Under the pieces are notes generated by a model that ran no database searches, was not told the origin of the DNA, and saw only the letters and a program-made list of their open reading frames with translations. Shown piece after piece: positions 5,525-23,095 of a stretch of DNA of 64,000 nt; within the stretch, counting starts at the first letter, position 1; the number at the start of each line of letters is the position of its first letter. Source of the DNA: Natrinema salinisoli (GTDB taxonomy: Archaea; Halobacteriota; Halobacteria; Halobacteriales; Natrialbaceae); assembly GCF_020405205.1 (NCBI RefSeq), contig NZ_CP084469.1, forward strand, positions 1,674,001 to 1,738,000, written 5' to 3'. A program made the translations under genes and the position numbers.

Positions 5525-5770
5525 TTATCTATTATCTTTTCGAGGGTCATTGACAAGCTCGAATAACCGAGTTCCCTCATGAACGCATTCAATATGGCTA
5601 GCAGCCTCAAGAACTTCAAGTCGATTGTAGACGGTATTTCTTGAGTAGCCAGTCCAGTCGACTAACGCACCCTTTGTTACCCGGCCGTCTTTTAATTCGT
5701 CGAGGATTGCCTCGTCAGCTGGTCTGAGGTCGTCAGGATCCATCGATTTGCTGTTTTGTGCAGCCGCCAT
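5525..5770 (-). CDS. Winged helix-turn-helix regulator, 81 aa
   Basis: A short DNA-binding protein. Residues about 14-70 form a winged helix ('ADEAILDELKDGRVTKGALV' then 'WTGYSRNTVYNRLEVLEAA'), with a wing followed by 'FELVNDP'. Such proteins are common single-domain regulators in haloarchaeal accessory regions. The ATG at 5770 is preferred; 5776 (two residues longer) is also possible. Upstream lie a TATA-like element (about 5818-5826) and a 15-base palindrome (5828-5842), suggesting autoregulation or control of the divergent operon starting at 5946. Confidence 0.7.
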   Translation of the reverse strand: MAAAQNSKSMDPDDLRPADEAILDELKDGRVTKGALVDWTGYSRNTVYNRLEVLEAASHIECVHEGTRLFELVNDPRKDNR

Positions 5771-5827
5771 GCGCATATATCCCACTAGTACGCATTTAGA
5801 GCTGTTCCTGTGCACACTATATATGCA

Positions 5828-5842
5828 TGTGCAAATTGCACA
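5828..5842. promoter_or_regulatory. Palindromic operator candidate between divergent genes
   Basis: TGTGCAA-A-TTGCACA is a perfect 7+1+7 palindrome. It sits next to a TATA-like stretch serving the minus-strand wHTH gene and about 100 bases ahead of the plus-strand operon at 5946. A second half-like site, TGTGCACA, lies about 12 bases away near 5810. Binding by the wHTH protein is inferred from position. Confidence 0.45.
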
Positions 5843-5945
5843 AAAGCTAAGGTAGAAGAACTCTTATCAGGTAACAAGTACGGGGCATCTCAGAGAATTT
5901 GAGGCCGGTGTTTCAGGCACCGACCCCGTGCTGGAGCAACCAGCA

Positions 5946-6314
5946 ATGTCAACTACGACTACTACACACGAAACGATTTCGGATGCACAACAGGACGACA
6001 TCGTCCTTGAGCAATCAGGAAGCTACTACGGATACCTCGGAAAAGACGGCGAGGGATATCACCATCACGTCGATGGGGCCACGAACACCGTCTACGTGAC
6101 ACCAGATCGCGCTGAGCAATTCCTTCCCGACAATGCGGGACTGTACTGGTTTCGCGTTCGCGGCGAACTCGTTCATAGAGAAAAACTCGAGCAAAAGGAG
6201 GACCGCGAAAGGTGGATCGCGTACGTCGACTCGGTCCGAGGTTGGATAGACCGTCCGATCCACCTCGACGTCACGGAAATCTTCGCTGAGATGCACGAGG
6301 GAGATCAGCGATGA
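5946..6314 (+). CDS. Hypothetical protein, 122 aa, first gene of a four-gene overlapping operon
   Basis: No domain is recognised. The protein is soluble, with a small beta-rich N-terminal half ('SGSYYGYLGKDGEGYHHHVD') and a helical C-terminal half. The ATG at 5946 is preferred over the in-frame site at 5928, which would add a short proline-containing leader. Its stop overlaps the ATG of the next small frame by four bases, and all four genes to 7555 overlap in this way, so they are one transcript. The operon is next to conjugation-like genes and resembles plasmid accessory modules. Function unknown. Confidence 0.65.
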   Translation: MSTTTTTHETISDAQQDDIVLEQSGSYYGYLGKDGEGYHHHVDGATNTVYVTPDRAEQFLPDNAGLYWFRVRGELVHREKLEQKEDRERWIAYVDSVRGWIDRPIHLDVTEIFAEMHEGDQR

Positions 6315-6418
6315 CCAACGAACACCGAGTCACGGTCACACTCGAACTTGAGCACCCAATCACCCCTGGAGATCTTGAACGCGCCTACTGCGAAATTCTC
6401 GAGCAGGTGGACCAATGA
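6311..6418 (+). CDS. Very small protein, 35 aa, inside the operon
   Basis: This is a 35-residue frame (starts 'MTNEHRVTVTLELEHPITPG') that exactly fills the space between two neighbours: its ATG overlaps the previous stop by four bases and its stop overlaps the next ATG by four bases. The double ATGA linkage makes it likely to be translated. The sequence predicts a beta-strand followed by an amphipathic helix, as in a truncated ferredoxin-like half-domain. No known family is recognised. Confidence 0.55.
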   Translation: MTNEHRVTVTLELEHPITPGDLERAYCEILEQVDQ

Positions 6419-6651
6419 AAAGGGAATTCGCCCTTCAGTGGACGCCCGCCCATGGTCCAATGCGAAAGCTCGTCTTCGAACCCCAATCCGAGGGCGAATA
6501 CTCGTGGGCTCGCATCGAGTTCGAACTATGCGAGTCACAGTGGCGAGAAGTGGGTATCGAGTACCTCGAGGAAGTCTCATTCGTCAGTGACCACGGAGAA
6601 GAGACTGCGCCATCCCACCCTCATCTGGACGGAGGCGACACCGATGAGTAG
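6415..6651 (+). CDS. Hypothetical protein, 78 aa
   Basis: A small soluble protein with alternating hydrophobic and charged residues typical of a beta-sheet domain, ending in an acidic tail ('LDGGDTDE'). It overlaps the preceding and following genes by four and eight bases. No family is recognised. Its conserved placement just ahead of the coiled-coil gene suggests joint function with it. Confidence 0.6.
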   Translation: MKREFALQWTPAHGPMRKLVFEPQSEGEYSWARIEFELCESQWREVGIEYLEEVSFVSDHGEETAPSHPHLDGGDTDE

Positions 6652-7555
6652 CGTTCCTACCCCCGGTGAGGTCGACATCGATACACTCGTGCAGGCGATC
6701 GATCATCTCCAGGAACAAAACGAGCGACTCACCGAGCGCGTCGATACTCTCGAAAGTGACCTCGAACAGACCCAAGACAAACTCGAGGGGCTCGAAGCTG
6801 AGAAAGCAGACCTCCAGGAGACAAACGAACGCCTCCGTGCCCGTCTCAAGGACTGCGAACAGGAAACCACACGGCTTGACGCACTCACAGACGCTACGCG
6901 CAAGCGATCGGGAATGAACAAACAGCGTATCGAGGAACTCCAAGCGCGCGAACTCGAAAAGGGTGCACATCTCCTCGCAGAGACCGTCGATCATCATGAG
7001 ATCGATATCGACGGTGATCACCTCGAACGGATCACGAAAGCCAACGACCGAACCTACTATCGACTCCCCCAATCGGACGATCCACTCGACCGCGGTGGGA
7101 ACGTCGCACTTGCCCACGGTGACTTGCTGCCAATCCAGCAACTCTCCCGAATGGACGAGGAGATGCTTTGCTCGACGGCGAATGCGTTGCCAACGCGCTT
7201 AGCTGCAAAGCTGTGGAAAGCGCGTACTGACTCGAGCGTCGGTGATAACCTGTGGGAGTCCGGCTGCAAGGGGATCAAAGAATACGTCAAGGCGAGTGAC
7301 CTGAAACACTGGATCCGCCGACAGGAGCCCGGAACGAGCGAGACGTACGCAAAGAAGCTCGTCTCCCGAACGATCGATGCCGTGCTCGATCTCTCGAATC
7401 ATCGTGTTGCGGTTCGCAAACGGACTGAACGAAAGAACGGGCTCGAGTACACCGAACGTCGGCTCGTCCTTCCCACTGATGCAGCAATCCCGGGTGAGAC
7501 CCCGGACTCGAGCAAACCAGAACAAAATCCGGAGACAGCTGGCGTCCACAGGTAA
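6644..7555 (+). CDS. Coiled-coil protein with conserved C-terminal domain, 303 aa; intact paralogue of 485-1380
   Basis: The N-terminal third (about residues 12-105) is a continuous heptad pattern rich in Glu, Leu and Lys, predicting a long coiled coil and oligomerisation. After the marker 'MNKQRIEELQARELEKGAHL' comes a compact domain with 'TYYRLPQSDDP', 'LLPIQQLSRMDEEML', a basic 'LKHWIRRQE' helix and 'RTERKNGLEYTERRLV'. The last part looks like a winged-helix DNA-binding end with a basic beta-hairpin. I know this type of gene from haloarchaeal plasmids but not its function. A DNA-organising or partition-like role is a guess. The start at 6644 gives the eight-base overlap with the preceding gene. 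A broken copy lies at 485-1380. Confidence 0.75.
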   Translation: MSSVPTPGEVDIDTLVQAIDHLQEQNERLTERVDTLESDLEQTQDKLEGLEAEKADLQETNERLRARLKDCEQETTRLDALTDATRKRSGMNKQRIEELQARELEKGAHLLAETVDHHEIDIDGDHLERITKANDRTYYRLPQSDDPLDRGGNVALAHGDLLPIQQLSRMDEEMLCSTANALPTRLAAKLWKARTDSSVGDNLWESGCKGIKEYVKASDLKHWIRRQEPGTSETYAKKLVSRTIDAVLDLSNHRVAVRKRTERKNGLEYTERRLVLPTDAAIPGETPDSSKPEQNPETAGVHR

Positions 7556-7760
7556 CCGTAGACACTGGGTAGAACCCACCCTCGAGAGAGCGTAAATCTC
7601 TCACCACACAACACCCACACATCACGCAGACGGTTGGTTAGTAGGTTAGGTAGCTGTCGGTGGGTCTCTCGAGTGGTCCTTGGTGGTCACTTCCGAATAC
7701 GATCTCGAGCATCCATACCGGAGACGACAGCTGTCCACGGACTGTACTGAATATCGCCCT
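7556..7760 (+). repeat. Diverged 3'-flank repeat, copy 2
   Basis: This is the counterpart of 1381-1600: a CTCGAGAGAGC/TCTCTC block close to the stop codon and an 'ACAGCTGTCCACGGA' block further on. The remaining bases up to 7853 show no gene. The palindromic CTCGAGAGAG...CTCTC patch just after the stop may form a terminator-like hairpin. Confidence 0.45.
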
Positions 7761-7853
7761 CGAGATTACTAACCGTCACTCACCCCGGCCGTTACAGGGC
7801 CCTTACTGAAGCCCACGATCGTCGAATCCATCCATTCGACCGGCCACACACCG

Positions 7854-8285
7854 ATGGCACCAGCAATCGCTCACTATCTCGTCGGCGCATCGCTCCTGTT
7901 GTTGCTCATAACGCCCATCGCGCTCCGATATCGATTGGCACCGTGGATACCGTTGGGGCTCGTCGCGCTCGGTGGAATCTGGGGACTAGGGCCCGATTTC
8001 CACCATATCGCGCCCATCTATGAGACCGAATTGCGCGCGTTGCACGGCTCACCCTGGGTCGATCTCTTCGCCTTTCACTACACACTCGATCGGCCAGCCG
8101 TCCGCGCACAGTATGACGCGAGCGTCTTCGGATCGATCCTGGGATTTTTCGGCGCCGTCACGACATTCATGATTGCCACAGAGTTACGTACCCGAACTAA
8201 CCTCACAAATACGGCTTCCCCGCATCTTGTCGCACTGAGCGTGGCACTGCTCCTTCTCTTGTTTGTCGCCGCTACGAGTAGCTAA
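7854..8285 (+). CDS. Membrane protein, 143 aa
   Basis: Hydrophobic segments lie at about residues 8-24, 30-46, 92-108 and 124-141. A conserved-looking extracytoplasmic or interfacial motif 'GLGPDFHHIAP' follows the second helix, resembling the metal-binding 'PDxDH' motif of small membrane hydrolases of the DUF457/YdjM type, but the protein is shorter. It is monocistronic, with no close neighbour on the same strand. A metal-dependent membrane role is speculation. Confidence 0.6.
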   Translation: MAPAIAHYLVGASLLLLLITPIALRYRLAPWIPLGLVALGGIWGLGPDFHHIAPIYETELRALHGSPWVDLFAFHYTLDRPAVRAQYDASVFGSILGFFGAVTTFMIATELRTRTNLTNTASPHLVALSVALLLLLFVAATSS

Positions 8286-8343
8286 TTCGGCTCTATCACA
8301 CCCACTAATCAGATTACCAGAATTCCCAAGAGAAAGACGATCA

Positions 8344-8622
8344 TTACTCGTTCTGAAGCGAGTCTGCGATAGATTTGAGCTCGTTCTTGCGGAAGAGGGC
8401 CTCTGCTTTGTCTGGATTATCTTCATCTAACACGCCTATCTTCCAGAGAATTCCCGCCCGCATCTGTGACTTGGGAGGAAGACGGTTTGTATCAATCTCG
8501 TAGTCCACGGCGTCACAGATCGCAGCGAGAGCTTCCTTGGTGAAGGCAGTGGATTCTTGGCGTTCGTATCTCCCCACGGCCAGCCGAATCTCGTTCCGAA
8601 GGTCATCCACAGTCTGTGCCAT
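8344..8622 (-). CDS. Hypothetical protein, 92 aa
   Basis: A soluble, mostly helical acidic protein beginning 'MAQTVDDLRNEIRLAVGRYE'. The fold 'LRNEIRLAVGRYERQES...FTKEALAAICDAVDY' suggests a small helical DNA- or protein-binding domain. No family was recognised. It lies on the minus strand just downstream of the zinc-ribbon gene and the transfer operon and may be part of the same accessory block. Confidence 0.6.
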   Translation of the reverse strand: MAQTVDDLRNEIRLAVGRYERQESTAFTKEALAAICDAVDYEIDTNRLPPKSQMRAGILWKIGVLDEDNPDKAEALFRKNELKSIADSLQNE

Positions 8623-8760
8623 ACTGACACCAAGGAGGAGACTCGTCCTGTATATTTCGGCCGTGCATCGAGTACCTCACTATCTAGCGCGACAGAAATG
8701 CCATTCGAGCAGAACCAGTGTCTGGACGCGGTTTCGTCGACTGCCGCTGCAATCCACTCA

Positions 8761-8943
8761 TCATTTCAGGTTGAACGTATGCTCTCGAGTCGCATCGCAA
8801 CTGGGACAGACGTGCCGATACACGAGCTGCTTGCCGTCCGTTCGGCTCTCCCAGTTGCCCTTCTCGTCCACATACCCGCAGTCTGGACACTTCTTGTCCG
8901 TCGTTTCGTAGCGCCGTCGAATGCGCTCGAGCACTGTTGTCAT
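8761..8943 (-). CDS. Small zinc-ribbon protein, 60 aa (HVO_0649-like)
   Basis: Two knuckles, 'CPDCGYVDEKGNW' (residues 19-31) and 'CPSC' (46-49), with a conserved 'YRHVCPSCDATREH' end, match the pattern of the haloarchaeal HVO_0649-type small zinc-finger proteins as I remember them. It probably binds one zinc ion. The gene follows the primase-polymerase gene by about 60 bases on the same strand and may be the last gene of the transfer operon. Confidence 0.75.
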   Translation of the reverse strand: MTTVLERIRRRYETTDKKCPDCGYVDEKGNWESRTDGKQLVYRHVCPSCDATREHTFNLK

Positions 8944-9002
8944 ATGTCACACTACTACCGGTGCAAGTAAAAACGAGTTGGTCACTCACAACCCCTCCTC
9001 TG

Positions 9003-10160
9003 CTATAGTCTGAGAATTCCCTGCAACCGCCGAAGAAGAGATCCCTGTTGTGTCTCTCTCGAAAGATCAGACGACTGCTCTCGAGCCGTAGACCGACCTT
9101 CATATGTCTCGAGGCGGCGCTCGAGTTGTTCGATACGCGCGGTCTTTTCGGCCAGTTGTGTTTCGAGGGCCATCGTCTGCTTTCGAAGCAGCGAAACTCG
9201 CTCTTTGAGGTAGACCTGCTCACGATCTCGCGCGGACTCTACACCTTGAGCCGTCACTTCACTCTGTCCCGTCTTAGACGGCTCGTAGAACTCAGAGGTG
9301 TGCTCAATCGCTCGAGTGATCGTCTTCTCACCATACGTCGACCCATCCGCAAAGTGTACCTCTCCCCATTTCGGACGGTCCAATTTGGATCGTCGAAACA
9401 ATCGATCCATCTGGACGGCATGGCCACCTGTCCAGAACGCGAGCAAACAACACAACGCCATATCCGCCTCCGACTGACTCGTATATCCGACAGTCGACCC
9501 GTTCCAGAGACGGTCGAATTTATCGCCGTTCGATGCGTTTCGTGCTTTCTCGAGTAGTTCGTCGTCCGAGAGGGAAGGTGCCGAACCTGACTCTGGCGGA
9601 GACTCCTCAGGAACGCCGTCATCGCTCTCCCGAACGTACATTGAATGAACCTCCTCGAGTTCGCGTTGCCGATATTCGATTTGCGTTGGTGTTCCCGAGA
9701 CGAGATCGCCGGTAACTGTAAAATATCGGGCGTGGTCGTACATCTCGACGTGGCCACATCGATTGCGACCTTCGGGAAGCTCACCACGTACCAGAACGTG
9801 ATAGCCAGTCCCTGATGGCGAGACTTCCGTATACGAGTCTAACTGACCGACTATCGTTTTTGCTTGCTCCGTTGGCCGTCCAGTATCCGGGTCACGACAG
9901 TCGTCCAAGTCCACTCCGACAAGTGGATCAGACGTCGTAAACACAAACCCAACCCCATCGACTGGCGTCGAACCCGACTCCACATACTCGAGAGCACCCT
10001 CGAAATCACTCCACGTTCCCTCATCCGTTGTCGATGCGAACCCCGCTGTCTGGGGATCGATCGGTACCTTCGTCGTCTCGCCGTTGCGCTTGGTTTCTTT
10101 CCAGCAGATCCACTGGTCTCGAGTACGCAACATCTCCGGGACAGTTATTTCATCAATCAT
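9003..10160 (-). CDS. Primase-polymerase (PrimPol, NrS-1-like) with C-terminal coiled coil
   Basis: Residues 1-165 match the PrimPol catalytic domain of the phage NrS-1 polymerase/plasmid primase type. It shows 'QWICWKE', the metal-binding 'VGVDLDDC' (about 81-88), 'SPSGTGYHVLVRG' (114-126) with the nucleotide-binding Ser/His, and 'YDHARYFTVTG' (141-151). A small helical domain follows (about 205-300; 'SEADMALCCLLAFWTGGHA' and 'LDRPKWGE'), as in helix-bundle partners of such primases. The last 80 residues form a coiled coil rich in Leu, Glu and Arg. Such enzymes start DNA synthesis on single strands and suit element replication or conversion of transferred single-stranded DNA. It starts five bases after the VirB4-like stop, in the same operon. 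No helicase domain is fused. Confidence 0.8.
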   Translation of the reverse strand: MIDEITVPEMLRTRDQWICWKETKRNGETTKVPIDPQTAGFASTTDEGTWSDFEGALEYVESGSTPVDGVGFVFTTSDPLVGVDLDDCRDPDTGRPTEQAKTIVGQLDSYTEVSPSGTGYHVLVRGELPEGRNRCGHVEMYDHARYFTVTGDLVSGTPTQIEYRQRELEEVHSMYVRESDDGVPEESPPESGSAPSLSDDELLEKARNASNGDKFDRLWNGSTVGYTSQSEADMALCCLLAFWTGGHAVQMDRLFRRSKLDRPKWGEVHFADGSTYGEKTITRAIEHTSEFYEPSKTGQSEVTAQGVESARDREQVYLKERVSLLRKQTMALETQLAEKTARIEQLERRLETYEGRSTAREQSSDLSRETQQGSLLRRLQGILRL

Positions 10161-10165
10161 AGCTC

Positions 10166-12295
10166 TCAGTCAGAGTGCCCGAGGGAACGCTGACCGCCAC
10201 CCGTCGTGCGGTCAGAAACATCACCACTATCCTCAGACTGGCCGGGCAACTCCGATCCAGACTGTGACTTGGGCTCGAAGTCGATCACTGCCGTCTCGTC
10301 TTCCATCGCTCGGACTTCGATCCCGCGCCATTCACCGTCGACGCCGACGAGCGCTTCTGAGTAGCCTGTCCGATCGTTGCCAGGCACAGCCTCCTGGATG
10401 AAGCGCATCTGTGCGGAATTGAGTCCGAACTCGTCGGCCCACTCGCGATCCATGCCATCGAGATGGTGGAACTGCTTGATCGCACATTGATCGATAATCG
10501 CCTCTGATTCTGGGTGCTGGAAGAACTCGTCGACGGTCTGCGTCACAAGTCGAATCGAGAGGTCGTGATGACGGTGGTGCCGAAAGACAATCTCGAGGTA
10601 CTCGAGACTCGCTGCGTCCTGCATGATATAGCGAGCCTCGTCGATGACGAAGACGACCTCTTTGTCCGTCTCCTTTGCGCGCTCGTAGACCAGCGATATC
10701 AGCAACTGCATAATCAAGCTCGTGCTTCCACCGAGACTCCCCTCTTGCTGGGCGAGATCGAGATAAATCACCTTCTCGTCGCGAATATCGAACGCTGTCT
10801 CACGGCCCAGGTTCTCGTAGCGCCCGTCTTCTGCGAACGGCCGTAACTGGTCGATAAGCCACGTCGCATCGTCTCGAATCTTCGTCGCCTCCTCGTCCGT
10901 CCGGACGACGTATTCGGTCGGTGTCTCGACCATCTCTTCGAGGATATCGAGGACGTCTCGCATCGTCGGACTCTCCTTGTGATGAGTCGCGATATCGTCG
11001 GTGATACCATTCCTCGCATACGACTTCTCGATCGCCGTCTCCAGCGTAGTCCGCCGATCCCCGAGTGAAATCCCACGGAGCGCGAAGTAGTTCGACAGGA
11101 AACTCATCACGCTATCGAGCTTTTCCCGATACGGACTCGCGTCCTCACCCATCGCCTGCTGGACGCGTTCGGGCGTGGATTTGATTTCGAGCGGGTTCAG
11201 TCCCATATCCCCGCCGATCGTCACTCGTTCACCACCGAGCGCTTCGGCGACACCGGCCCAGTTGTTCAACGGCTCGAGGATGATCCCGATTCGGTCCTCG
11301 CTTTGCTCGATCGACCGGATGAAGTTCTGTTTCGAGCCGAACGATTTGCCAGAACCCGGATCGCCGATCGTGAACATCGCATAGCCGTTCTCTCGAGCGA
11401 ACGGATCGATCGCGACCGGGCTCTGATTCTTCCAGTGAGCACCGAATTCGACGCCACCGTCCTCGAGAATCGTCGCGTTGTGCGGCGACGCAAGCAGTGC
11501 ACCAACTGCCCCACCCAACGCAGTGGCCTCCCGACCGAACGGATTCGCGCCGATCGGGGCTGCAGCCTGAATTGCCAGATCCTGCTTGCAAATCGCCGTT
11601 TTCGGCGAGAGCCCAGCTGGCTGTTCACGAAGCCGACTGCGAATGACGCGAACGTCCTCGCGCAACACCTCACGTGAATCCGCGCGCACCGTAATGAACA
11701 TCCCCTGATCGAACACGCGACTCCCGTTCTCGACGCTTTTGTACGTCGACAGCGCCTCGTTGGCTCGCTCTTGGAGATAGCTCCCACGAACAGTTCGCTC
11801 GAGATCTGCATCGGCCTGAAGATCGTCGGCAACTCGCTGGAGTTCGTCTCGAGCTTGCTGTTGGCTCTTCGGTGTGACGTGAACCGTCAGATCGAACTCG
11901 ATGTCCGTGAGCTCGAAGAGGTCGGTTAGATAGCCATCCTTCGGATAGTCGGGATAATCGGCGATGTAGAGTGTGGAGGTCCACTGATCGCCAACACGAG
12001 CGGTCCGCGTATCCCACTCGATCGCTGCCGGTGCGATAACGTGCTGGTGATGCTCCGCGATCTCGTCGAGGACCTCACCTTCCTTACTCCCGTTCTTTAG
12101 GGCCGTCTCCTCGAGGAGATCCGCGAGCTCGACCTCCTCAGGATCCTCGGATCGCCAGTAGTCCCATGCAAACGCTACAAGAAGTGTGACCAGTGCCGTT
12201 CCCCCAATATAGAACGCAAGTCCGGCCTGGGTTCCCGAATCAGGAAGCGAACTCTGCAGTTGATCGACGATCGAAAGCATATGCATCGCGGTCAT
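10166..12295 (-). CDS. virB4-like: VirB4/TraC-type secretion ATPase
   Basis: The 709-residue protein has one hydrophobic segment at about 25-44, a VirB4 N-terminal region, and a FtsK/HerA-type ATPase core. Walker A is 'GDPGSGKS' (311-318), Walker B 'VVFVIDEA' (547-554), followed by the sensor strand 'IRLVTQTVDEF'. VirB4 ATPases power pilus assembly and substrate transport in type IV secretion and conjugation. The start codon overlaps the stop of the gene at 12292 by four bases, so translation is coupled. Position in an operon with PrgI-, VirB6- and VirB2-like genes supports the call. An archaeal HerA helicase is less likely because of the membrane segment and this context. Confidence 0.85.
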   Translation of the reverse strand: MTAMHMLSIVDQLQSSLPDSGTQAGLAFYIGGTALVTLLVAFAWDYWRSEDPEEVELADLLEETALKNGSKEGEVLDEIAEHHQHVIAPAAIEWDTRTARVGDQWTSTLYIADYPDYPKDGYLTDLFELTDIEFDLTVHVTPKSQQQARDELQRVADDLQADADLERTVRGSYLQERANEALSTYKSVENGSRVFDQGMFITVRADSREVLREDVRVIRSRLREQPAGLSPKTAICKQDLAIQAAAPIGANPFGREATALGGAVGALLASPHNATILEDGGVEFGAHWKNQSPVAIDPFARENGYAMFTIGDPGSGKSFGSKQNFIRSIEQSEDRIGIILEPLNNWAGVAEALGGERVTIGGDMGLNPLEIKSTPERVQQAMGEDASPYREKLDSVMSFLSNYFALRGISLGDRRTTLETAIEKSYARNGITDDIATHHKESPTMRDVLDILEEMVETPTEYVVRTDEEATKIRDDATWLIDQLRPFAEDGRYENLGRETAFDIRDEKVIYLDLAQQEGSLGGSTSLIMQLLISLVYERAKETDKEVVFVIDEARYIMQDAASLEYLEIVFRHHRHHDLSIRLVTQTVDEFFQHPESEAIIDQCAIKQFHHLDGMDREWADEFGLNSAQMRFIQEAVPGNDRTGYSEALVGVDGEWRGIEVRAMEDETAVIDFEPKSQSGSELPGQSEDSGDVSDRTTGGGQRSLGHSD

Positions 12296-13392
12296 TGATC
12301 GGCCCTCCGCTGATGATCGATCGTCGGATGATCGCGAATCGCATCCTCACCGTTGTCGTATTCGTGTTTCTCGCTGTTCCAGAAGTCCATCGAGAGGACG
12401 AACAGTTCGACCGTCGTGAGTCGATGTGCGGACCACCCCGGTACCTTCTGGACGAACTCCGTCTGAAGGCTCCGACATCGGTTCTCGAGTTTCTCGAACA
12501 TGGCCGCACGGATCTCTGCGTCGGCCATATCGTTCCGACGAGTCACGAACGGATTGACGAGAAAACCGACCACCGGAAACGAGGTGAGCTTCTCTGCAGG
12601 AGATTGTTCGTCCTGATAGCGGTCGTAGACTTCGAACGGATCGACTTGAACACCGATGAAGTATCGGATCTGCTGAGTTCCCTCGAGCTCTCGAGGACGT
12701 TGTTCGCGATATTCCTCGAGCAACTCCCTGAAAACCGGATTCTGCTTGACATCACTGTCGGTGAGCCGTCCGTCAATTCGATCGATCAGCTTTGCGACCG
12801 GAAACGGGCGAGTCGTCGCGTGGAACGTGAGAGTGAAATCGAGTTCTTTGTTCGCGAACTCCTCCCCGAGACGCTGTATCTGTGCCCAGTCACCGGACAT
12901 CGCGAAGTCCATGTTTCCGGGATCGATCTCGAGGTACGCTTCCATCGTGCCATCCGAACGTTCGATCGCACCCGTACCGGGCCACGCACGCCTGATATTC
13001 GTGAGATCCTGCGTTCGCTCGTCCGGTTTGAACGGCGTATAATTCACGAGCCCACCATCGGTACTCGACTCAGTGGACTCAGTCGTCGCCGCTGTACTGT
13101 ACGTGAATCGGGGACGTTTGCAGTAGTAGCGATAGATATCTCCCAGCCACGTCGAGGCTGGCAGATGACTCGGCGACGAGTAGACGATTGCACCACCGGC
13201 GATGACTCCCAAGAGAACAAACGGTACGATTGCACCATCGAGCCCAGTGAACCCACCAACGAGGAGACCTGCTATCGGAAATCCAAGCAGGACATAGACG
13301 TCGCCTTCCTCGATATTGAGTAGCGAGATTCGATTTTCTTCGCCCAGTTCATCCATGATTCGACGGCCAGCTGCATCTCTTTTGTGTGACAT
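12292..13392 (-). CDS. PrgI/VirB3-VirB4-N-like membrane protein, 366 aa
   Basis: After a short cytosolic start, two hydrophobic segments (about 32-48 and 51-70) precede a soluble domain of about 280 residues resembling the N-terminal, non-ATPase part of VirB4 (strand-rich, with 'AYLEIDPGNMDFAMSGDW' and 'TLTFHATTRPFPVAKL'). In Gram-positive conjugation systems the corresponding small PrgI-type membrane protein is often joined to or next to VirB4. It overlaps the VirB4-like gene by four bases. Its probable role is anchoring the ATPase at the membrane channel. Confidence 0.7.
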   Translation of the reverse strand: MSHKRDAAGRRIMDELGEENRISLLNIEEGDVYVLLGFPIAGLLVGGFTGLDGAIVPFVLLGVIAGGAIVYSSPSHLPASTWLGDIYRYYCKRPRFTYSTAATTESTESSTDGGLVNYTPFKPDERTQDLTNIRRAWPGTGAIERSDGTMEAYLEIDPGNMDFAMSGDWAQIQRLGEEFANKELDFTLTFHATTRPFPVAKLIDRIDGRLTDSDVKQNPVFRELLEEYREQRPRELEGTQQIRYFIGVQVDPFEVYDRYQDEQSPAEKLTSFPVVGFLVNPFVTRRNDMADAEIRAAMFEKLENRCRSLQTEFVQKVPGWSAHRLTTVELFVLSMDFWNSEKHEYDNGEDAIRDHPTIDHQRRADQ

Positions 13393-14535
13393 TCAGTAGT
13401 ACCCCGGATCGTTCTCAGTTCGACGGTACACCGGGATACCGTCCTGGCCATACGCGTCTGTCGCAACGTTATCGTGGTCGGTTCGTCCTCCAGTACTGCC
13501 GCTCGAGTCCTCTGATTGGGATGAGCCGCTACTCTGACGCATCTTCGAGACAGCAGAATAGCCGACAGCCGCTTTCGGTCCCCACGTCGCGGTTGTCGCT
13601 GCAGCAGCCGGACCAGCAACGACTCCAGCGCCGACTGCAGCACCTGCAGTCACTCCGACCCTTGTCGTTGCGCCGATTATGCTTGCCGTCATCGGACTCG
13701 CATACGCAAACGACTTCCAGACGATGACGATCGAAAGCAGTGGCAATGTTACCGCGAGAAGGTAGCTCAGGAACGAGCTGTCCGGAATAAGTGCGGAGTC
13801 CGTTCCCTCCCTGAACAGGAGCTCATAGCCCTTGAACAGTAGCGCCACCGGAATCGGCATGATCGCAAGCGGCACGAACTTCATACAGACCGTTCTCGAG
13901 ATCCGCGAAACGACGGGAAGATTGCCATATGCCAAAGCCAGCCCTATCGGCATCGCGTAAATCAGGATATACAACATGATATCGCGAAGGAAAAAGAGGG
14001 CTTGAAGGATCCACATCGCCGTGGCACCAACTCCCGTAAGGAAAAGCGCAAGGAGTGGATTCGGAATGGTTGTCAGAAGCAAGTCAGCCATATCGTCAGT
14101 AACTGTTGATATATCTGGCAGGAGCGCAATCGTGAATCCATCAACTATGTAAAGAACCAGAACGGCGAGCCAGTACCAGGTTACAATTAGAAACGCACCT
14201 GTCCAAGCGCTGCGTTTCGCTTTTCGAGTCTCGTATATACTGCCGATATTGAATATTCGAATCGTGTGCCGTCCCTGAATACAGGTCACAAGTAGTAACA
14301 ACGCAACAAGCATGATATCGCCAGCAACGAGACTGCTATGGATCTGCTCCCATGGCACGTTCGATGGCTGTCCGAACACGAATGCACCATTCGTTTCCGG
14401 GGTTGGTGTCCCAAAAATTTGAGCTGTGATCGTGTCATATCCATCTACCAACCCGTCCTGAAACCAACCAATGATCTTGTCAATTGCGTCTTCGAACCAC
14501 TTGCTCCCGATATCGGAGAATGACCACGTCAACAT
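13393..14535 (-). CDS. VirB6/TrbL-like polytopic channel protein, 380 aa
   Basis: About six to seven hydrophobic segments lie between residues 70 and 320, preceded by an amphipathic N-terminus ('FEDAIDKIIGWFQDGLVDG') and followed by an Ala/Gly-rich stretch (about 305-335) and a disordered Ser/Gly/Asp tail. This architecture is that of VirB6/TrbL inner-membrane channel components. Sequence identity to bacterial VirB6 is not obvious and the call depends on topology and operon position, between the lipoprotein and the PrgI-like protein. Its stop is directly next to the next start and its ATG overlaps the lipoprotein stop. Confidence 0.65.
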   Translation of the reverse strand: MLTWSFSDIGSKWFEDAIDKIIGWFQDGLVDGYDTITAQIFGTPTPETNGAFVFGQPSNVPWEQIHSSLVAGDIMLVALLLLVTCIQGRHTIRIFNIGSIYETRKAKRSAWTGAFLIVTWYWLAVLVLYIVDGFTIALLPDISTVTDDMADLLLTTIPNPLLALFLTGVGATAMWILQALFFLRDIMLYILIYAMPIGLALAYGNLPVVSRISRTVCMKFVPLAIMPIPVALLFKGYELLFREGTDSALIPDSSFLSYLLAVTLPLLSIVIVWKSFAYASPMTASIIGATTRVGVTAGAAVGAGVVAGPAAAATTATWGPKAAVGYSAVSKMRQSSGSSQSEDSSGSTGGRTDHDNVATDAYGQDGIPVYRRTENDPGYY

Positions 14536-15377
14536 TATGATAACTCCTCGATTTCGACATCACAATCATCAGAGTCTGTCTCAAGATAGTGGATCATATA
14601 CTCGAGAGCGAGATTCTCTTCATCGTGGGCCGCGAAGAGACGGACAGTGAACCGTCCGTTTCGTCCAACCGAGTTGCACTTCGATCGCGTACTTGCTGGT
14701 GAGAAGGGTCTTGTACTGCTATAGAGGAGAACAGTCTCGCCAGCAGGGATCGGTATTAATTCAGCATTCGCTTCAAACTCATCCTCCGGATCGTAGATCC
14801 CACTCTTCCCGACTTCATCATAGCTTTCGTGCGTCGGAAAGGGAACATCTCCTTCAAATCGTAACGCGGTAGCCGCAGTTGGGCCAGTTCCCCGGTTCGC
14901 CACAGAAAGGATCGCCTCTGCTTCCGTTTCGGAATCACTTGCTCCATCATACATTGCTTCGGGGTGGTCTCGCCCCAACCTGAGTTCCGAAATCTCGAGT
15001 TCTGGCTCGAGCGTAATCGACGTCGTCTCGACCGTCTGTCCGTCGGAGAGTCCAATGAGTTCGTACTCGCCAGGTGGATAGTCCGTCCCGACCTTGACCA
15101 TCGTGCGGGACACCCCCGATCCAATCGTTCGGCGAGCGAACAGTTCGCCGGAGGGGGCAACTACGTTCAACTGATCAACCGCGTCTCGCTCGAGTTCGAT
15201 CACCAGATCGAGATCGACCATTTCACTGCTATGGATGATCTCCCCACCGGAGTCAGCTGTTGGCTCGGTCTCTCCAGAATTACTCACCGTTGAACAACCG
15301 GCGAGGCTGGTGCTGATTCCAGTAAGAAGGCTTCCGAGGACGATGCGTCTGTGTGGGGTATATTGCGTATCTGTCAT
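14535..15377 (-). CDS. Secreted lipoprotein, 280 aa
   Basis: The start at 15377 gives a signal peptide with arginines before the hydrophobic core ('HRRIVLGSLLTGISTSLAGC'), a Tat-type lipobox ending at the conserved Cys, followed by an acidic Ser/Thr/Glu linker. The rest is a beta-rich extracytoplasmic domain; the carbohydrate-binding-like spacing of strands suggests an Ig-like or CARDB fold. The ATG overlaps the previous gene's stop by four bases (ATGA), which decides this start over the longer frame reaching 15509. It is probably a surface-exposed component of the secretion or pilus apparatus. Confidence 0.75.
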   Translation of the reverse strand: MTDTQYTPHRRIVLGSLLTGISTSLAGCSTVSNSGETEPTADSGGEIIHSSEMVDLDLVIELERDAVDQLNVVAPSGELFARRTIGSGVSRTMVKVGTDYPPGEYELIGLSDGQTVETTSITLEPELEISELRLGRDHPEAMYDGASDSETEAEAILSVANRGTGPTAATALRFEGDVPFPTHESYDEVGKSGIYDPEDEFEANAELIPIPAGETVLLYSSTRPFSPASTRSKCNSVGRNGRFTVRLFAAHDEENLALEYMIHYLETDSDDCDVEIEELS

Positions 15378-17077
15378 AGTGTTTCTCTGATTTTCAAGAA
15401 GGATCCGATCCGCTTCGCAGCGTTCAGTGCGACTGCGAAGGGAATTGCATATCGAACGAAATCGACCAGAAGCGTAAACCAGCCCGTCGGGGTCGCTAGT
15501 GGGTGCCACGTTTCGGTCGCTGTATCACCGACATACGCCGGGCTATGCGATCGCCACGAGCCCGGGTGGTACTCTGCCGTGTAGATTCCCGGTTGGTCGA
15601 TTGTGATCTCCGCAACGCCGTCCGCATTGGTCCGTACTCGCTGATCATCGATCGTAATGTATCCCTCGCGGGAATCATGGCCGATCACTGAGAATCGAGG
15701 ATCATCGAACGGACTCTCGAGCATGATTGGCGATCCCGTTTCGGCATCGCGAAGCGTGATCGCGACCGTCACCGCGGTCGCGTTCGAATCGACGATCTCG
15801 ACGGAGAGGTTACTCTCACGGATCTCGCGCTCTGATCCCCCGTCGGGTTCGACGATATCTGCGGAGACGCCACGAACGATTCCCTCGACAGTGACGGCAT
15901 CCGGATCGATGATATCGTGGCGAAGGGCGAGTCCGTACGATCGCGTGTATGTATCGGAGACCACATCGACGTCGACGTTCTCGTGGATCGATGGCTCCGG
16001 GGACGTACTCTCAGTTCCCCAGACCTCGAGAATCTCCGGGCCATCCCGGATGGGCTCTGTGCGCGGCCCCAACTCAGATGGATACGCATGGACGTATACC
16101 GGCAGTGCATCGGAGTCAACAGTCTCTCGGCCCCTCTGTGTTGCGTGGGTGAGTTCGTCCCAGTCAGTCTCTCGAGCGGTGTAATATCGCCACACGCCAC
16201 GGACCTTCGCTTCGCCATCGTCCGACAGCGTGTATCCGTGCCACGGCTGGGCTTGATAGATCGCAACGCCGCTGTCGCCGTTGGGATACGACGCATGATA
16301 GATCGATGTCCGCAGCTCATAGATTTCGACTTCGAGGTCCTGGGAGACGGTCACTCGGTCGGTACTCACCTCCGTCTCGTTGCCAACCCTGCTCTTGACT
16401 CGAGCACTGATGTCCGCCTCGAGCGTTAGCGTCGCCGACCCACCTCGGTCGAACTCGTAGTCGAAGGTCGGTGTCTGTGTCCCCCCGATGGTGTCGACGA
16501 CATCACCATCGCGCAGGAGTCGGATTTCGTCGATTCCGTGGGTTTGGATCGACGAGTTGTTTTCGAGGCGGATGCGATAATCGACGAGTCCACGGAGTTC
16601 GCCTTCTGGTGCGATGTAGTGAACCGTCTCAGTCGCGTCCAGATGCGCTCTCGTCGACGGATGAATCGCAAACGTCGTCACGTGGGCGTCGGCGATGAGT
16701 GTAGAATCCGTGATCGTCGCGTGCTCAGGATAAATGGAGGTTCTCGCATTGCCTCCATCGAGCGATTCGTAGTCGGATGCTGTCCACCGCTCGGCCGTGT
16801 CAGGGGGCGTTTTGAACGTGATGTCCGTACAGTTGCCGAGTTCCTGCATCACGGTCCGCTCTTCGCCGTATCGCTCCTCGTACTCGGCGTTACTTATGCA
16901 CGCATTCGGTGCGTTCGACCACAGCGTTGCTGTCTCGTTTTCGCCCAATCCGTGTTCGTCGGTGTCCATCTGGACCGAAGCGTCGGCGCTAACGATTCCG
17001 GTACCGCTGAGGGCAACGACGATTCCGACGGCCGCAAGGAGGTGTGTCCCTCCGAGTAGCCGTCCCTCGAATCGCAT
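15374..17077 (-). CDS. Large secreted membrane-anchored protein, 567 aa
   Basis: An N-terminal signal peptide (about residues 1-30) is followed by a 490-residue extracytoplasmic region rich in Thr, Asp and Glu with an Ig-like terminal domain ('ITIDQPGIYTAEYHPGS', about 495-515), then one hydrophobic segment near 535-553 and a short basic tail, so the protein is anchored by its C-terminus. Several Asn-X-Ser/Thr sequons could be glycosylated. Its place in the transfer operon between the VirB2-like gene and the lipoprotein suggests an adhesin or mating-pair surface component. No sequence family was recognised. Confidence 0.65.
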   Translation of the reverse strand: MRFEGRLLGGTHLLAAVGIVVALSGTGIVSADASVQMDTDEHGLGENETATLWSNAPNACISNAEYEERYGEERTVMQELGNCTDITFKTPPDTAERWTASDYESLDGGNARTSIYPEHATITDSTLIADAHVTTFAIHPSTRAHLDATETVHYIAPEGELRGLVDYRIRLENNSSIQTHGIDEIRLLRDGDVVDTIGGTQTPTFDYEFDRGGSATLTLEADISARVKSRVGNETEVSTDRVTVSQDLEVEIYELRTSIYHASYPNGDSGVAIYQAQPWHGYTLSDDGEAKVRGVWRYYTARETDWDELTHATQRGRETVDSDALPVYVHAYPSELGPRTEPIRDGPEILEVWGTESTSPEPSIHENVDVDVVSDTYTRSYGLALRHDIIDPDAVTVEGIVRGVSADIVEPDGGSEREIRESNLSVEIVDSNATAVTVAITLRDAETGSPIMLESPFDDPRFSVIGHDSREGYITIDDQRVRTNADGVAEITIDQPGIYTAEYHPGSWRSHSPAYVGDTATETWHPLATPTGWFTLLVDFVRYAIPFAVALNAAKRIGSFLKIRETL

Positions 17078-17117
17078 CAGGGCCTCCGACTCGAGAAGAC
17101 ACTTTCGCGGAGCAGCA

Positions 17118-17537
17118 TCACCATGGAATGAAGTTGACGCACTCGGCTAACGGAAGCCCCATCGTAGAGCCGGCAACCGTATACAGCGGTCCGAGGACCA
17201 GCAAGATGACCGCGGATTTCATCGCTGTCCGCTTGTGCATCTTTAGATCCTTCTTCTGCTCGAGGTTCATCGTGAACATTTCGACGAGCGAGTCGACTTG
17301 CCAGACGACGACCAGACCCATGAGGCCGATCGCGGTCGTGATCTGAAAGAAGCCGGAGATCATTCCGGGTAACCCTTCAGCGTCGCAAACGACGTTGTCC
17401 TGTGCGACGACCGGGTCGACAGCGATAACTGTCAATAGTGCAAGGGCCCCAAGACCAGTGCGTACGACTCGAGGGAATAGTTTGGGTGATTCGCCCGTCT
17501 CTTCTGAGTGGATTGAAATCGCGGGTTTCGAATACAT
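17118..17537 (-). CDS. Small three-helix membrane protein, VirB2/TrbC-like pilin candidate
   Basis: The 139-residue protein has a hydrophobic first segment (about 29-46) that could be a cleaved signal ending near 'PVVAQD', then two further hydrophobic segments (about 60-80 and 108-130) separated by a charged cytoplasmic loop ('NLEQKKDLKMHKRTAM'). Signal plus two helices is the layout of VirB2/TrbC conjugative pilins. It is the first gene of the operon, directly behind a strong TATA promoter, as expected for an abundant subunit. The length is somewhat above usual. Two Cys residues are present. Confidence 0.55.
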   Translation of the reverse strand: MYSKPAISIHSEETGESPKLFPRVVRTGLGALALLTVIAVDPVVAQDNVVCDAEGLPGMISGFFQITTAIGLMGLVVVWQVDSLVEMFTMNLEQKKDLKMHKRTAMKSAVILLVLGPLYTVAGSTMGLPLAECVNFIPW

Positions 17538-17599
17538 TGGTATGCTTTTCGATCGAAAGACGTCTTTCAGGGAATCTACCGTATAGATTCACAGGAACT

Positions 17600-17660
17600 T
17601 TTTCGATCGTCAAACTCAGTCCCCCGTTGCCAACTATATAAATTTCGTATATATTATACT
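17600..17660 (-). promoter_or_regulatory. AT-rich promoter of the transfer operon
   Basis: On the minus strand an AT-rich block contains TTTATATAG (about 17632-17645) preceded by more A/T runs (to about 17680). This is a good haloarchaeal TATA box for the operon starting at 17537, leaving a leader of about 70 bases. It is one of the most AT-rich spots in the surrounding 10 kb. Confidence 0.55.
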
Positions 17661-17733
17661 AGGAAATATAGAAAAGGAGTGTGAAAATATCGGATGCATA
17701 TAGGAGTCTAATACGTGTCCAAACACCACACTC

Positions 17734-17889
17734 TCAATCGATATCTAGGACAACCACATCGTTCACACGGCAATACGGGCACCGATCTCGGTCGCTTTCG
17801 AGCGTCGTCCCACAGTTTCGACACTCGAAGATTGTTGTAGTGGCTCGTCTGGGACGGTCGTAGAGCCATTCGAGAACGTTCAGCGTCAT
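17734..17889 (-). CDS. Small zinc-ribbon protein, 51 aa
   Basis: The ATG at 17889 gives a clean 51-residue protein with 'CRNC' and 'CPYC' knuckles, a one-zinc ribbon similar to the C-terminal end of transcription-associated zinc proteins. It overlaps the stop of the SWIM gene by four bases (ATGA), which supports this start over longer upstream frames. The two are expected to act together. Confidence 0.7.
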   Translation of the reverse strand: MTLNVLEWLYDRPRRATTTIFECRNCGTTLESDRDRCPYCRVNDVVVLDID

Positions 17890-18332
17890 TCGAGCCCTCG
17901 GCGACCAGTTCGAACACAGTTCCAGCAGGGAAACGAGTCTCCGGTCTCGGGGCAATCACAGTCTTCTCCCGACGCCACGTTTTCGGAGTCCGTTTGCGGA
18001 TCGGAGTGATCCGTCTTCCCGCGGGATTCGATTGTCTGTCCACCGTCGGTAGCGAGTTGCTGGTGAGTGACCGCCTGGACAATTGGCCGGCGAATCGCAA
18101 CTGCTACTCGGTGTTTGCATGCTCCCTCGTAGTGTTCGTCTGCAGGACACTCACACGCTGTTGGAATCCCGTTCGTGACGGTAACAACGTACTCGTGTTC
18201 GTCTGGTTTTGCGTGACTGCCGTTTTTGACGAGAACGCCCGTCGATGTGAGCGTGTATTCGAACGCTTCGTACTGTGCTCGTTTCGCCGTCCGGCGTGTA
18301 AACTCGAGTTTTGAGAGTGGGTTTGTCGACAT
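17886..18332 (-). CDS. SWIM zinc-finger protein, 148 aa
   Basis: A SWIM motif (CxCxnCxH) is visible as C60, C62, C72 and H74 ('CECPADEHYEGACKH'). A second cluster near the C-terminus ('CDCPETGDSFPCWNC') resembles a further zinc site. Proteins of this layout are common in haloarchaea, often encoded on plasmids, and bind DNA or partner proteins. The N-terminal 'NPLSKLEFTRRTAKRAQYEAFE' block is typical of the family. The minus-strand TATA-like TTTTTATG near 18380 lies in position for a short leader. Confidence 0.8.
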   Translation of the reverse strand: MSTNPLSKLEFTRRTAKRAQYEAFEYTLTSTGVLVKNGSHAKPDEHEYVVTVTNGIPTACECPADEHYEGACKHRVAVAIRRPIVQAVTHQQLATDGGQTIESRGKTDHSDPQTDSENVASGEDCDCPETGDSFPCWNCVRTGRRGLE

Positions 18333-18490
18333 TCAATTTTCACGCGAGGCCTGAGTGGCCCCGCGCCCTGCAGGGGCACATAAAAACGGGCGCTTGCTAG
18401 TGTGACACAGCAGAGTTCTTCGGTGAACGCTTGCTGTGCTTCCGTTAGAAGTGATTGAACCTCATATAGTCAGATTAGCGACTTTCTTCT

Positions 18491-18604
18491 GAGAATCTCG
18501 TCGTCGATATTCTCGGTGAAACTGTTCCACTTACTGCAAAGCGCGTTGTGGAAACAGGAAGCCCTACCCTCAAGGAGCGAACCGCGTCAGCGGTGAGCGA
18601 GTAG
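18491..18604 (+). mobile_element. IS200/IS605-type remnant: 3' end of tnpB
   Basis: Reading from 18491 to TAG at 18604 gives a frame ending 'AKRVVETGSPTLKERTASAV' then 'SE', which is the C-terminal signature of haloarchaeal TnpB proteins. Nothing upstream belongs to TnpB; the catalytic RuvC and zinc-finger parts are gone. The same DNA folds into a nested hairpin (18562-18606). The scar sits directly behind the truncated VapC gene on the opposite strand. Confidence 0.75.
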
Positions 18605-18606
18605 GG
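18562..18606 (+). ncRNA. Nested hairpin of TnpB right-end RNA (remnant of an omega/sot-type RNA)
   Basis: CCCTAC (18562-18567) pairs with GTAGGG (18601-18606), and inside it ACCGC (18581) pairs with GCGGT (18590-18594) around a GTCA loop. TnpB guide RNAs arise from exactly this right-end region overlapping the tnpB 3' end. Whether it is still transcribed without TnpB is unknown. Confidence 0.5.
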
Positions 18607-18702
18607 TGGGGAAGAAGTCACTGAACATGAAAATCGACCAGTCTCGACCTAATCGTCGATCTGATTCGGCAACTACTGTTCAGGCTGGGGACGTCTCGCT
18701 GT

Positions 18703-18750
18703 CTAAAGATGATCTGCAGAAAGGACTCCCGTATCCACGAGGACCGTCAT
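18703..18750 (-). pseudogene. Truncated vapC toxin (first 14 codons only)
   Basis: An ATG overlapping the antitoxin stop (ATGA, as in intact vapBC pairs) opens 'MTVLVDTGVLSADH', the usual first strand of a haloarchaeal PIN-domain VapC with its catalytic Asp. One codon later the frame ends in TAG (18703-18705), and the following sequence has no PIN similarity. The toxin was evidently cut by the IS200/IS605-type insertion whose scar lies just beyond. Confidence 0.75.
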
Positions 18751-19022
18751 CCGTAGAGGATCTCGTCGATATCGTCTTCGTCGGTTTCGACACCAGAACT
18801 GAACCGGTTTCGACCCATCGCCTCTTTCTCCGCCTCCGAGAGCGGAACCGTCGTATCTCGGAACGAGTCAATCACCTCGTCATGTGATTCGTACGCATTG
18901 TTAATGAGCTGTGTGAGTAATTCTTGTTCTGTGATGTTCGTCCCCGTCCGGAGTCGGATTTCGGCTTGAAGTTCCTCGAGGCGTGATTTCGTCCTCTCAT
19001 CCACCTCCACTGCTGTCGTCAT
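18747..19022 (-). CDS. VapB-type antitoxin, 91 aa (orphan)
   Basis: The start 'TTAVEVDERTKSRLEELQAE' and the 'DEDDIDEIL' end are characteristic of haloarchaeal VapB antitoxins paired with PIN toxins. The N-terminus is a DNA-binding segment of the AbrB/RHH kind; the C-terminus wraps the toxin. Its own toxin gene is destroyed after 14 codons, so this antitoxin is orphaned, but it could still repress transcription or cross-neutralise other VapC proteins. Confidence 0.8.
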   Translation of the reverse strand: MTTAVEVDERTKSRLEELQAEIRLRTGTNITEQELLTQLINNAYESHDEVIDSFRDTTVPLSEAEKEAMGRNRFSSGVETDEDDIDEILYG

Positions 19023-19479
19023 ACTCGTCAGTTAGATCCGAAATTAAGTGAAATCATCTACTCTTAGCTTTTCATAAGTTATCGAGTGACTTTCAAACAC
19101 CAATGCGGAATACAGAGCTCAATCAATTCTCAGAAGCGGTATCTCTTTCGTGTTAACCAACAATCTGTCCAAATAGAATGATGTTGGTTAATTCATTCTC
19201 CAAGAAGAACATTGACCTACTGGGAGGTCTCTTCTATCAGGATATCGGAATTGACTCGTAGTCGCATTGATGCTCACGTGTCGGATTGTCGTCTGAGCGA
19301 GTGTAGTCTATGCTGATTGCCTACAACACCAACCGACAGACACACGTGTAAAGTCTGATTAGTTGCGGCGAAGGAACAGTTAGGGAAATGATGGGACTGA
19401 GAGACTTTTTCAGCGATTGGGTACCATATAATTCGTTTGAATGCCAAATTATTAGTGTAGCGGCGACCAAGGGTTTCCA
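19023..19479. other. Intergenic stretch without recognised gene
   Basis: These 457 bases are relatively AT-rich and lie between the orphan antitoxin and the plus-strand wHTH operon. The last 60 bases contain A/T runs (for example around 19428-19445) that could be the promoter of the gene at 19480. No repeat, tRNA or conserved frame is seen. Confidence 0.5.
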
Positions 19480-20034
19480 ATGAGCGACCGGCCATCAATG
19501 TGGTCCGACGAGATGAATGCTGCAGATCGCGTGAGGCACGTGGCAGTAACCCGAACTACACCACGGAACGCAGGCTGGATTGCTGAGGAAGCAGGTGTTT
19601 CAAGAGACACTGCTGTCAAATATCTTGAACGGATGGCCGACCAAGGCGAACTTGTGGTCGTAGAAACAGCTGACGGAACGTGTTACAAACCAGACGACGT
19701 CACTCAGTTTCTTCGTGAAGTCCGGACACTTGCCGAAGAAGAGTCGGTAAACGATCTTACTGCGGAACTGCAGGCGATCGGTAACGAAATCGATTCGTGG
19801 AAATCGACCTACAATGTTGAGTCGCTCGAAGAACTTCGCCAGAGCATTGGAAGCAACGATCTCTCACCCGACGATCGAAGTGAACGCCTCGATATAATCG
19901 AGGAGTGGGAGTACAACGTTCAGATTCGCGAAGCGCTTCAGCTCGCAATCAGTCTCCAAAGTTCACTCACGAAGCTCGATACAGATTCACGGATCGAACA
20001 TCTCAACTCGGGAACGCTCCCGCAAGAAGGCTAA
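19480..20034 (+). CDS. Winged-HTH protein, 184 aa (DUF7342-like)
   Basis: Residues about 13-80 form a winged helix ('PRNAGWIAEEAGVSRDTAVK' plus 'YLERMADQGELVVV'), followed by a helical region to the C-terminus with charged heptads. This layout is typical of haloarchaeal DUF7342-type regulators. The next gene starts nine bases after the stop, so the two form an operon. A two-gene unit of an HTH protein and a small partner resembles a toxin-antitoxin locus of the antitoxin-first kind. Confidence 0.7.
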   Translation: MSDRPSMWSDEMNAADRVRHVAVTRTTPRNAGWIAEEAGVSRDTAVKYLERMADQGELVVVETADGTCYKPDDVTQFLREVRTLAEEESVNDLTAELQAIGNEIDSWKSTYNVESLEELRQSIGSNDLSPDDRSERLDIIEEWEYNVQIREALQLAISLQSSLTKLDTDSRIEHLNSGTLPQEG

Positions 20035-20043
20035 GACGAACGC

Positions 20044-20487
20044 ATGGTGATATTTCTTGCAGGCGGCCGGGGTTTCACCCGGCGCGAAGGACTTCGTCGT
20101 CTCAAAGAACGCCTCGAAAAGGAACCTGGGTTCTCAGATGTCCAGTACCGACCATCTCGGCTTCGTCCTCGATCCATCACTGCTAACGTTGACCCAGATA
20201 TGTTTCTCGGAGAATCATTTCCCCGAAAAGAGGCTACCTTCGAAGTGATGTGGCGGCCACGGGCCGGTATCGATGTCCAGCGTGTTCAGTGGGCGGATGA
20301 CGAGGTCAGTCTCGGATGGCACAAAGATGGCGATCATGAAGATCTTGGAACAACTCATTTCCAAATTGATACTGAGAATGAATTAGTCCACGAACCGGGA
20401 AATCTTGAGGCCGAAGCACCATTGAGCTTTTTAGAGGCATGTCTCCATCGATTGCCCAAGAAACTCGATGAAACAATTGCAAAGTGA
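20044..20487 (+). CDS. Partner protein of the wHTH gene, 147 aa (toxin-like candidate)
   Basis: A small basic-to-neutral protein with strand-rich middle 'VQRVQWADDEVSLGWHKDGD' and 'LGTTHFQID', resembling small TumE-like partner proteins of HTH antitoxins, although I cannot confirm the family. No nuclease motif is evident. It lies nine bases behind the HTH gene. Other explanations, such as a DNA-binding cofactor of the regulator, remain open. Confidence 0.6.
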   Translation: MVIFLAGGRGFTRREGLRRLKERLEKEPGFSDVQYRPSRLRPRSITANVDPDMFLGESFPRKEATFEVMWRPRAGIDVQRVQWADDEVSLGWHKDGDHEDLGTTHFQIDTENELVHEPGNLEAEAPLSFLEACLHRLPKKLDETIAK

Positions 20488-20627
20488 GTTCTGTCGATCC
20501 CGATCGGACGTAGCATTCTAACCAATTCACTCGCTGAACAGTTTATTTCTCAAACTAGCTCAACTAGTGTTGCTCCAATCATAATAAGACGAGTCGATAT
20601 AAGTTCAACATCATTATTTCACAGAAA

Positions 20628-20649
20628 TCCTACGACTGACGTCGTGGGA
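20628..20649. repeat. Hairpin TCCTACGAC-TGAC-GTCGTGGGA
   Basis: A nine-base stem with one G-T pair and a TGAC loop in a 280-base noncoding gap. The sequence resembles hairpins seen near ends of haloarchaeal IS200/IS605 elements, but no transposase residue is found here. A second small hairpin, GCCCA-GT-TGGGC, lies near 20716. It could equally be a terminator for the operon ending at 20487. Confidence 0.4.
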
Positions 20650-20769
20650 GTAGTCACGTAGCCCTCGAAGATTGAAGCGACACTAGACAAGGACCATTAA
20701 GGGCATCTGTCCGCTGCCCAGTTGGGCGCAATCCAGATGGGGACCCCTCCCGAAGACTGCCATATATTC

Positions 20770-23000: not shown

Positions 23001-23095
23001 TGGAATTCTAACTTCCAAAGGCGCTCACTCGGCGTCTTTTCCGACACCACGACTCTCCAGCCTTAGCTCTCGTCGCACTCCAACGTTCCATCATA

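Follow-up and report, generated by a model that had tools for sequence, protein, structure and literature searches.

Conjugative plasmids without a recognisable relaxase have been reported from archaea, and archaeal conjugation without such an enzyme is a standing question (PMC3158045, PMC9905601, PMC12857230). Integrated elements that carry VirB4, VirD4 and HerA-type genes are already known from haloarchaea (PMC9259645). The pR1SE-like vesicle plasmids carry vesicle gene clusters, namely ORF6–9 and ORF17–25 (PMC10818511). In bacteria, the TraC1 and Sog primases are transferred into the recipient, where ArdC also acts (PMC7213743).

Here, we analysed a stretch of 64,000 nucleotides from Natrinema salinisoli (hereafter the window), in which channel genes of the VirB4/VirB6 type are followed by a gene for a primase-polymerase (PrimPol). 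As judged from its sequence, the locus is probably an integrated conjugative element in a Natrinema-group chromosome, or the still-selected descendant of one, possibly no longer mobile, that would export single-stranded DNA and leave synthesis of the second strand to the PrimPol; we assign this reading a probability of about 0.6. The module brings a channel, a motor ATPase and a primase together and is found in many haloarchaeal genera, including the manipulable Haloferax. Its recurrent insertion beside aglB, the gene of an N-glycosylation enzyme, calls for an explanation.

The channel operon

The operon comprises the following genes:

9003..10160, minus strand: NrS-1-type PrimPol, 385 aa, with a helicase-binding domain and a C-terminal coiled coil (PF22763)
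10166..12295, minus strand: VirB4 ATPase, 709 aa (NCBIfam, PDB and Pfam matches)
12292..13392, minus strand: PrgI/VirB3-like protein, 366 aa, two membrane helices plus a soluble domain (position and hydropathy)
13393..14535, minus strand: VirB6/TrbL-type polytopic protein, 380 aa (PF19590, TrbL_3)
14535..15377, minus strand: Tat-type lipoprotein, 280 aa (RR motif and LAGC lipobox; conserved in relatives)
15374..17077, minus strand: secreted, C-terminally anchored protein, 567 aa (signal peptide; conserved in relatives)
17118..17537, minus strand: VirB2-like pilin candidate, 139 aa (weak PF04956 match, model topology)

The seven minus-strand genes that the initial annotation placed at 9003–17537 are all present as reading frames with zero internal stops. 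They were said to overlap mostly by four bases, which is true for only two of the six junctions (secreted protein/lipoprotein and PrgI-like/VirB4). The other junctions are one 1-base overlap, one abutting pair and gaps of 5 bases (VirB4/PrimPol) and 40 bases (VirB2-like/secreted protein), a spacing from which co-transcription of the PrimPol gene with the channel genes may be inferred. Because the gene order is kept across tens of haloarchaeal genomes and dN/dS lies between 0.06 and 0.28 in all eight genes tested, indicating purifying selection, the operon is more than a chance arrangement. An Rfam scan of window positions 1–32000 gave no match.

The VirB4 protein matches the NCBIfam VirB4 CD1110 family with an E-value of 2e-39, under the equivalog cut-off of that model, and its scores likewise stay under the equivalog thresholds set for individual bacterial families. 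Pfam PF19044 (TraG P-loop) is matched at E 1e-7, and a VirB4 structure, 4ag5, was the sole match in the PDB (E 1e-7). The Walker A motif at 311–318 reads GDPGSGKS and the Walker B motif near 547–554 reads VVFVIDEA, both as described before. The initial annotation had itself named clustering with HerA as an outcome that would count against it; the protein instead matches profiles and the crystal structure of VirB4. VirB6/TrbL identity is likewise borne out, with an E-value of 8e-207 for PF19590. Taken together, the VirB4 and VirB6 profiles and the VirB4 structure match uphold the proposal of a conjugation-like apparatus of the VirB4/VirB6 type.

The remaining membrane proteins are assigned with less certainty. 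The PrgI identity fits by position and topology, but a family or clear fold match is absent: zero family profiles matched the protein, its profile-profile comparison with VirB4 was negative, and its low-confidence AlphaFold model (pLDDT 48) resembled the N-terminal part of an R388 T4SS chain only weakly (Z 2.8). For the VirB2-like candidate, weak matches to PF04956 in 17 of 30 relatives (best E 0.004) are consistent with a pilin, but the fold search with its AlphaFold model, a low-confidence prediction of two helices besides a signal helix (pLDDT 63), gave no decisive match. Neither the lipoprotein nor the 567-aa secreted protein matched a known family. Fusexin was considered as an identity for the latter and found no support in the PDB sequence search, in which no sequence was matched, that of the Fsx1 structure included; the fusexin profile (HAP2/fusexin, PF10699) was silent everywhere, in the control genomes too.

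An insertion between aglB and bacA

The operon is real, but its end at 17537 is not the end of the feature, which reaches from about 5.38 to 29.6 kb. The initial annotation had overlooked a probable coupling ATPase, ArdC-like and SSB-like genes and the surrounding insertion:

5380..29620, no strand: whole insertion, ends approximate, flanked by aglB and bacA
20984..21922, minus strand: ArdC-like protein with a single-stranded DNA-binding domain and an HExxH protease domain (PF08401 and PF06114, above cut-off)
22152..23018, minus strand: RPA/SSB-like OB-fold protein, 288 aa (NCBIfam replication factor A)
24968..28813, plus strand: HerA/TrwB-type ATPase, 1281 aa (PF01935 and PF10412, above cut-off)

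The element has a defined insertion site with empty sites in relatives. The distance between aglB and bacA is 24.5 kb here and 107–485 bp (matched ends) in relatives without the element, and the GC content is 50–58% over about 4–30 kb compared with 58–69% around it. The window lies within a 4.19-Mb contig, and the genome has two smaller contigs that bear module copies of their own. The same site is filled by 19–121 kb in seven further genomes of this genus (G002, G007, G010, G019, G021, G024 and G028). Copies of the element are truncated or reduced to remnants in G019, G022, G013, G028 and G017; the better-preserved copies have in common the VirB2-like, secreted, VirB6, PrgI-like, VirB4, PrimPol and ATPase genes and two genes of unknown function. 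A tyrosine integrase (PF00589) was not matched inside the occupied aglB–bacA sites, flanking direct repeats of at least 11 bp were not seen at the insertion, and no paper on this insertion site was found in the literature searched, which omitted most subscription journals.

The ArdC-like gene, whose HExxH motif reads HEYAH, and the RPA/SSB-like gene, whose match to NCBIfam replication factor A (E 7e-19) is under cut-off, lie between the channel operon and the gene of the 1281-aa ATPase. This ATPase has a Walker A motif, matches the structures of HerA (central domain) and TrwB, and is about 30% identical to the protein directly after VirB4 on plasmids. Its homology and position make it a probable coupling protein; against this, a membrane helix was not predicted in it. 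The ATPase lineage is found in 6 of the 29 genera of the family. Eight genomes with this lineage were examined. In two of them, the ATPase gene lies no more than 3 kb from bacA or aglB; in another three, a gene resembling aglB or glmS is found at a distance of up to about 9 kb, some of these genes being only 40–56% identical and possibly paralogues. ArdC and SSB genes occur near the ATPase gene in four of the eight.

The VirB4 tree gives at least two origins for the copies at the aglB–bacA site, with plasmid copies interspersed. By synonymous distances, the window is closer to G002/G010 in its ATPase, VirB2-like and secreted-protein genes and closer to G024/G021 in VirB4 and PrimPol. Since these distances shift along the element, modules have apparently been exchanged by recombination between copies on chromosomes and on plasmids.

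These data bear on whether the locus is a domesticated DNA-exchange system with a role like that of Ced/Ted, in which the element is fixed and the machine moves chromosomal DNA rather than itself. The fixed site across the genus, the lack of an integrase match and the purifying selection on the genes all agree with such a role, and Ced provides a precedent of a domesticated system (PMC9905601). However, the patchy occupancy, the truncated copies and the spread of sizes have the look of a mobile element undergoing decay, the VirB4 tree speaks against a single origin, and the PrimPol and ArdC genes fit an invading element better. We therefore consider domestication unlikely.

Further observations were made in and around the insertion. 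A short hairpin-forming sequence of the CCGCACAACATCACCTTGCGG type lies at 29440–29463, between the ATPase gene and bacA; it is kept in G002, G010, G021 and G024 and did not turn up in any further locus searched. It might serve in termination, in recombination or as an origin of transfer, and folding of the ATPase–bacA intergenic stretch showed little covariation. The aglB gene adjoining the insertion (window 2662–5103; also locus L059 of G017) occurs in two forms whose upstream sequences differ, and G017 has an intact-looking aglB and an N-terminal aglB remnant across scraps of the element, as if the elements carried or replaced aglB. A 367-aa coiled-coil protein (window 6452–7555) is common to five elements, with three copies within the G007 insertion. 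At 19480–20487, a DUF7342 winged-helix gene and its 147-aa partner, possibly a toxin-antitoxin or regulator pair, share 78–82% identity with a gene pair of a Natribaculum breve plasmid. Outside the insertion, a DUF3368/PIN-like protein (window 2063–2593) gave a match at E 1e-13 to PDC-S70, a candidate defence family of PADLOC.

The linked primase and the missing relaxase

The PrimPol matches PF22763 (E 2e-28) and the NrS-1 primase structures in the PDB (E 2e-48), and its DxD motif (residues 84–86) and His121 are invariant across 14 relatives. Its identity is accordingly specified as the NrS-1 type, with catalytic motifs from which activity is predicted and a helicase-binding domain. The tight linkage to the channel genes proposed earlier also held: besides the short gap in the window, the PrimPol gene stands beside virB4 in nine genomes of the genus.

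We compared 80 named haloarchaeal loci, which were picked by similarity to the window VirB4 and hence do not sample archaeal T4SSs at random. Of these, 62 have a primase downstream of VirB4; among the 72 loci whose downstream sequence extends for 7.5 kb or more, the figure is 60. An NrS-1-type PrimPol is present in 36 of the 80 (31 after a coupling ATPase and 5 directly after VirB4, as in the window); another 26 have a PriS-type primase (PF01896) accompanied by a partner gene. Within the genus of the window, a PrimPol lies at most 9 kb downstream of 37 of the 47 VirB4 matches, and 37 of the 53 strong PrimPol matches follow a VirB4. The literature searched, from which most subscription journals were missing, contained no paper on VirB4–primase linkage in haloarchaea. 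Separately, the L092 contig, labelled as the MAG of a PVC-group bacterium, carries VirB6, PrgI, VirB4 (81%) and PrimPol of the haloarchaeal family, with PrimPol directly after VirB4, and is probably a mis-binned haloarchaeal contig.

The PrimPol may only replicate the element, which counts against a role in transfer: the locus would then be a conjugation module in which the PrimPol is merely the replication protein, and the neighbourhood would reflect the organisation of a plasmid backbone. NrS-1-type PrimPols are replication enzymes, and 16 of the 53 strong PrimPol matches in the genus have no VirB4 match nearby. On the other hand, the position behind the channel and coupling genes is taken by either of two unrelated primases, and the PrimPol gene is still beside virB4 in chromosomal copies whose ATPase has moved away. 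We regard this explanation as a serious possibility, at somewhat below even odds.

The initial annotation had reported no relaxase, and our searches agree: no Pfam relaxase was matched in the insertion, and the two families searched genome-wide, PF03432 and PF08751, were silent in six genomes in which the controls worked. It had also raised the idea of double-stranded transfer, which we set aside because no gene supports it; ArdC, SSB and PrimPol point to single-stranded DNA. A T4SS-derived system for protein secretion, rather than a DNA transporter, would account for the lack of a relaxase, as bacterial T4SSs without one are often protein exporters (PMC3158045). Nevertheless, the linked primases and genes for handling single-stranded DNA, the presence of the module on many plasmids, and the proven archaeal conjugation of pT33-3 without a recognised relaxase (PMC12857230) make this explanation very improbable.

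We thus favour an integrated conjugative element, because VirB4, VirB6 and PrimPol could be assigned together with a coupling-type ATPase, because sites are empty in some relatives and occupied in others, with genes under purifying selection and recombination with plasmid copies, because a primase follows in most loci with two unrelated types in one slot, and because ArdC, SSB and ATPase genes occur together in other genera. Against this reading stand the several truncated copies, the lack of a predicted membrane helix in the ATPase and the failure to find a relaxase, a tyrosine integrase in the occupied sites or flanking direct repeats. In such an element, VirB4 and the membrane proteins would build the channel and pilus, and the 1281-aa ATPase would feed single-stranded DNA into the channel. 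ArdC and SSB would shield the strand in the recipient, where PrimPol and a host helicase would make the complementary strand, by analogy with the bacterial TraC/Sog primases; an unrecognised nuclease would stand in for the relaxase. The gene content suggests that haloarchaea may transfer single-stranded DNA from cell to cell without the nicking enzyme that bacteria usually employ. A bolder and rather doubtful proposal is that the locus represents a relaxase-independent family of conjugative elements in archaea: an archaeo-eukaryotic primase would be a dedicated transfer part, with two unrelated types swapped at one operon position, and the single-stranded DNA would be made by the unrecognised nuclease.

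Comparison with known systems

In comparison with the fsx1-bearing haloarchaeal integrated elements, which are chromosomal insertions with VirB4, VirD4/TraD and HerA-type genes (PMC9259645), the element is similar in kind. The fsx1-bearing elements have a fusexin gene and XerC/D recombinases; here neither was found, the fusexin profile being silent in controls too. PrimPol linkage and the aglB–bacA site are not mentioned in the available text for the fsx1-bearing elements. The pNOB8/pING family and pT33-3 likewise have a VirB4 ATPase and no recognised relaxase, together with a VirD4-like ATPase that the probable coupling protein here would match, and are described with only those two T4SS homologues (PMC12857230), whereas the present element also has VirB6/TrbL, a VirB2-like pilin candidate, ArdC, SSB and PrimPol.

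Like Ced/Ted, the locus is chromosomal conjugation-type machinery with a VirB4/HerA-type motor and membrane proteins of the VirB6 type and, as a candidate here, the VirB2 type (PMC9905601). However, Ced/Ted are domesticated importers (PMC9905601), whereas the present locus is an inserted element whose site is empty in some relatives; the CedB model gave a weak match here (E 4e-4), far under cut-off. A primase gene in the transfer region is shared with TraC1 of RP4 and Sog of IncI1 (PMC7213743). TraC1 shares an ArdC-type domain (PMC7213743), whereas the ArdC-like protein is separate here, and TraC1 and Sog have TOPRIM-type domains in relaxase-based systems (PMC7213743), in contrast to the archaeo-eukaryotic primases without a relaxase described here. 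Finally, the PrimPol shares the catalytic and helicase-binding domains of the NrS-1 primase-polymerase (PDB 6k9a, 7rr3) and differs from it in the C-terminal coiled coil that replaces the helicase and in its linkage to a T4SS.
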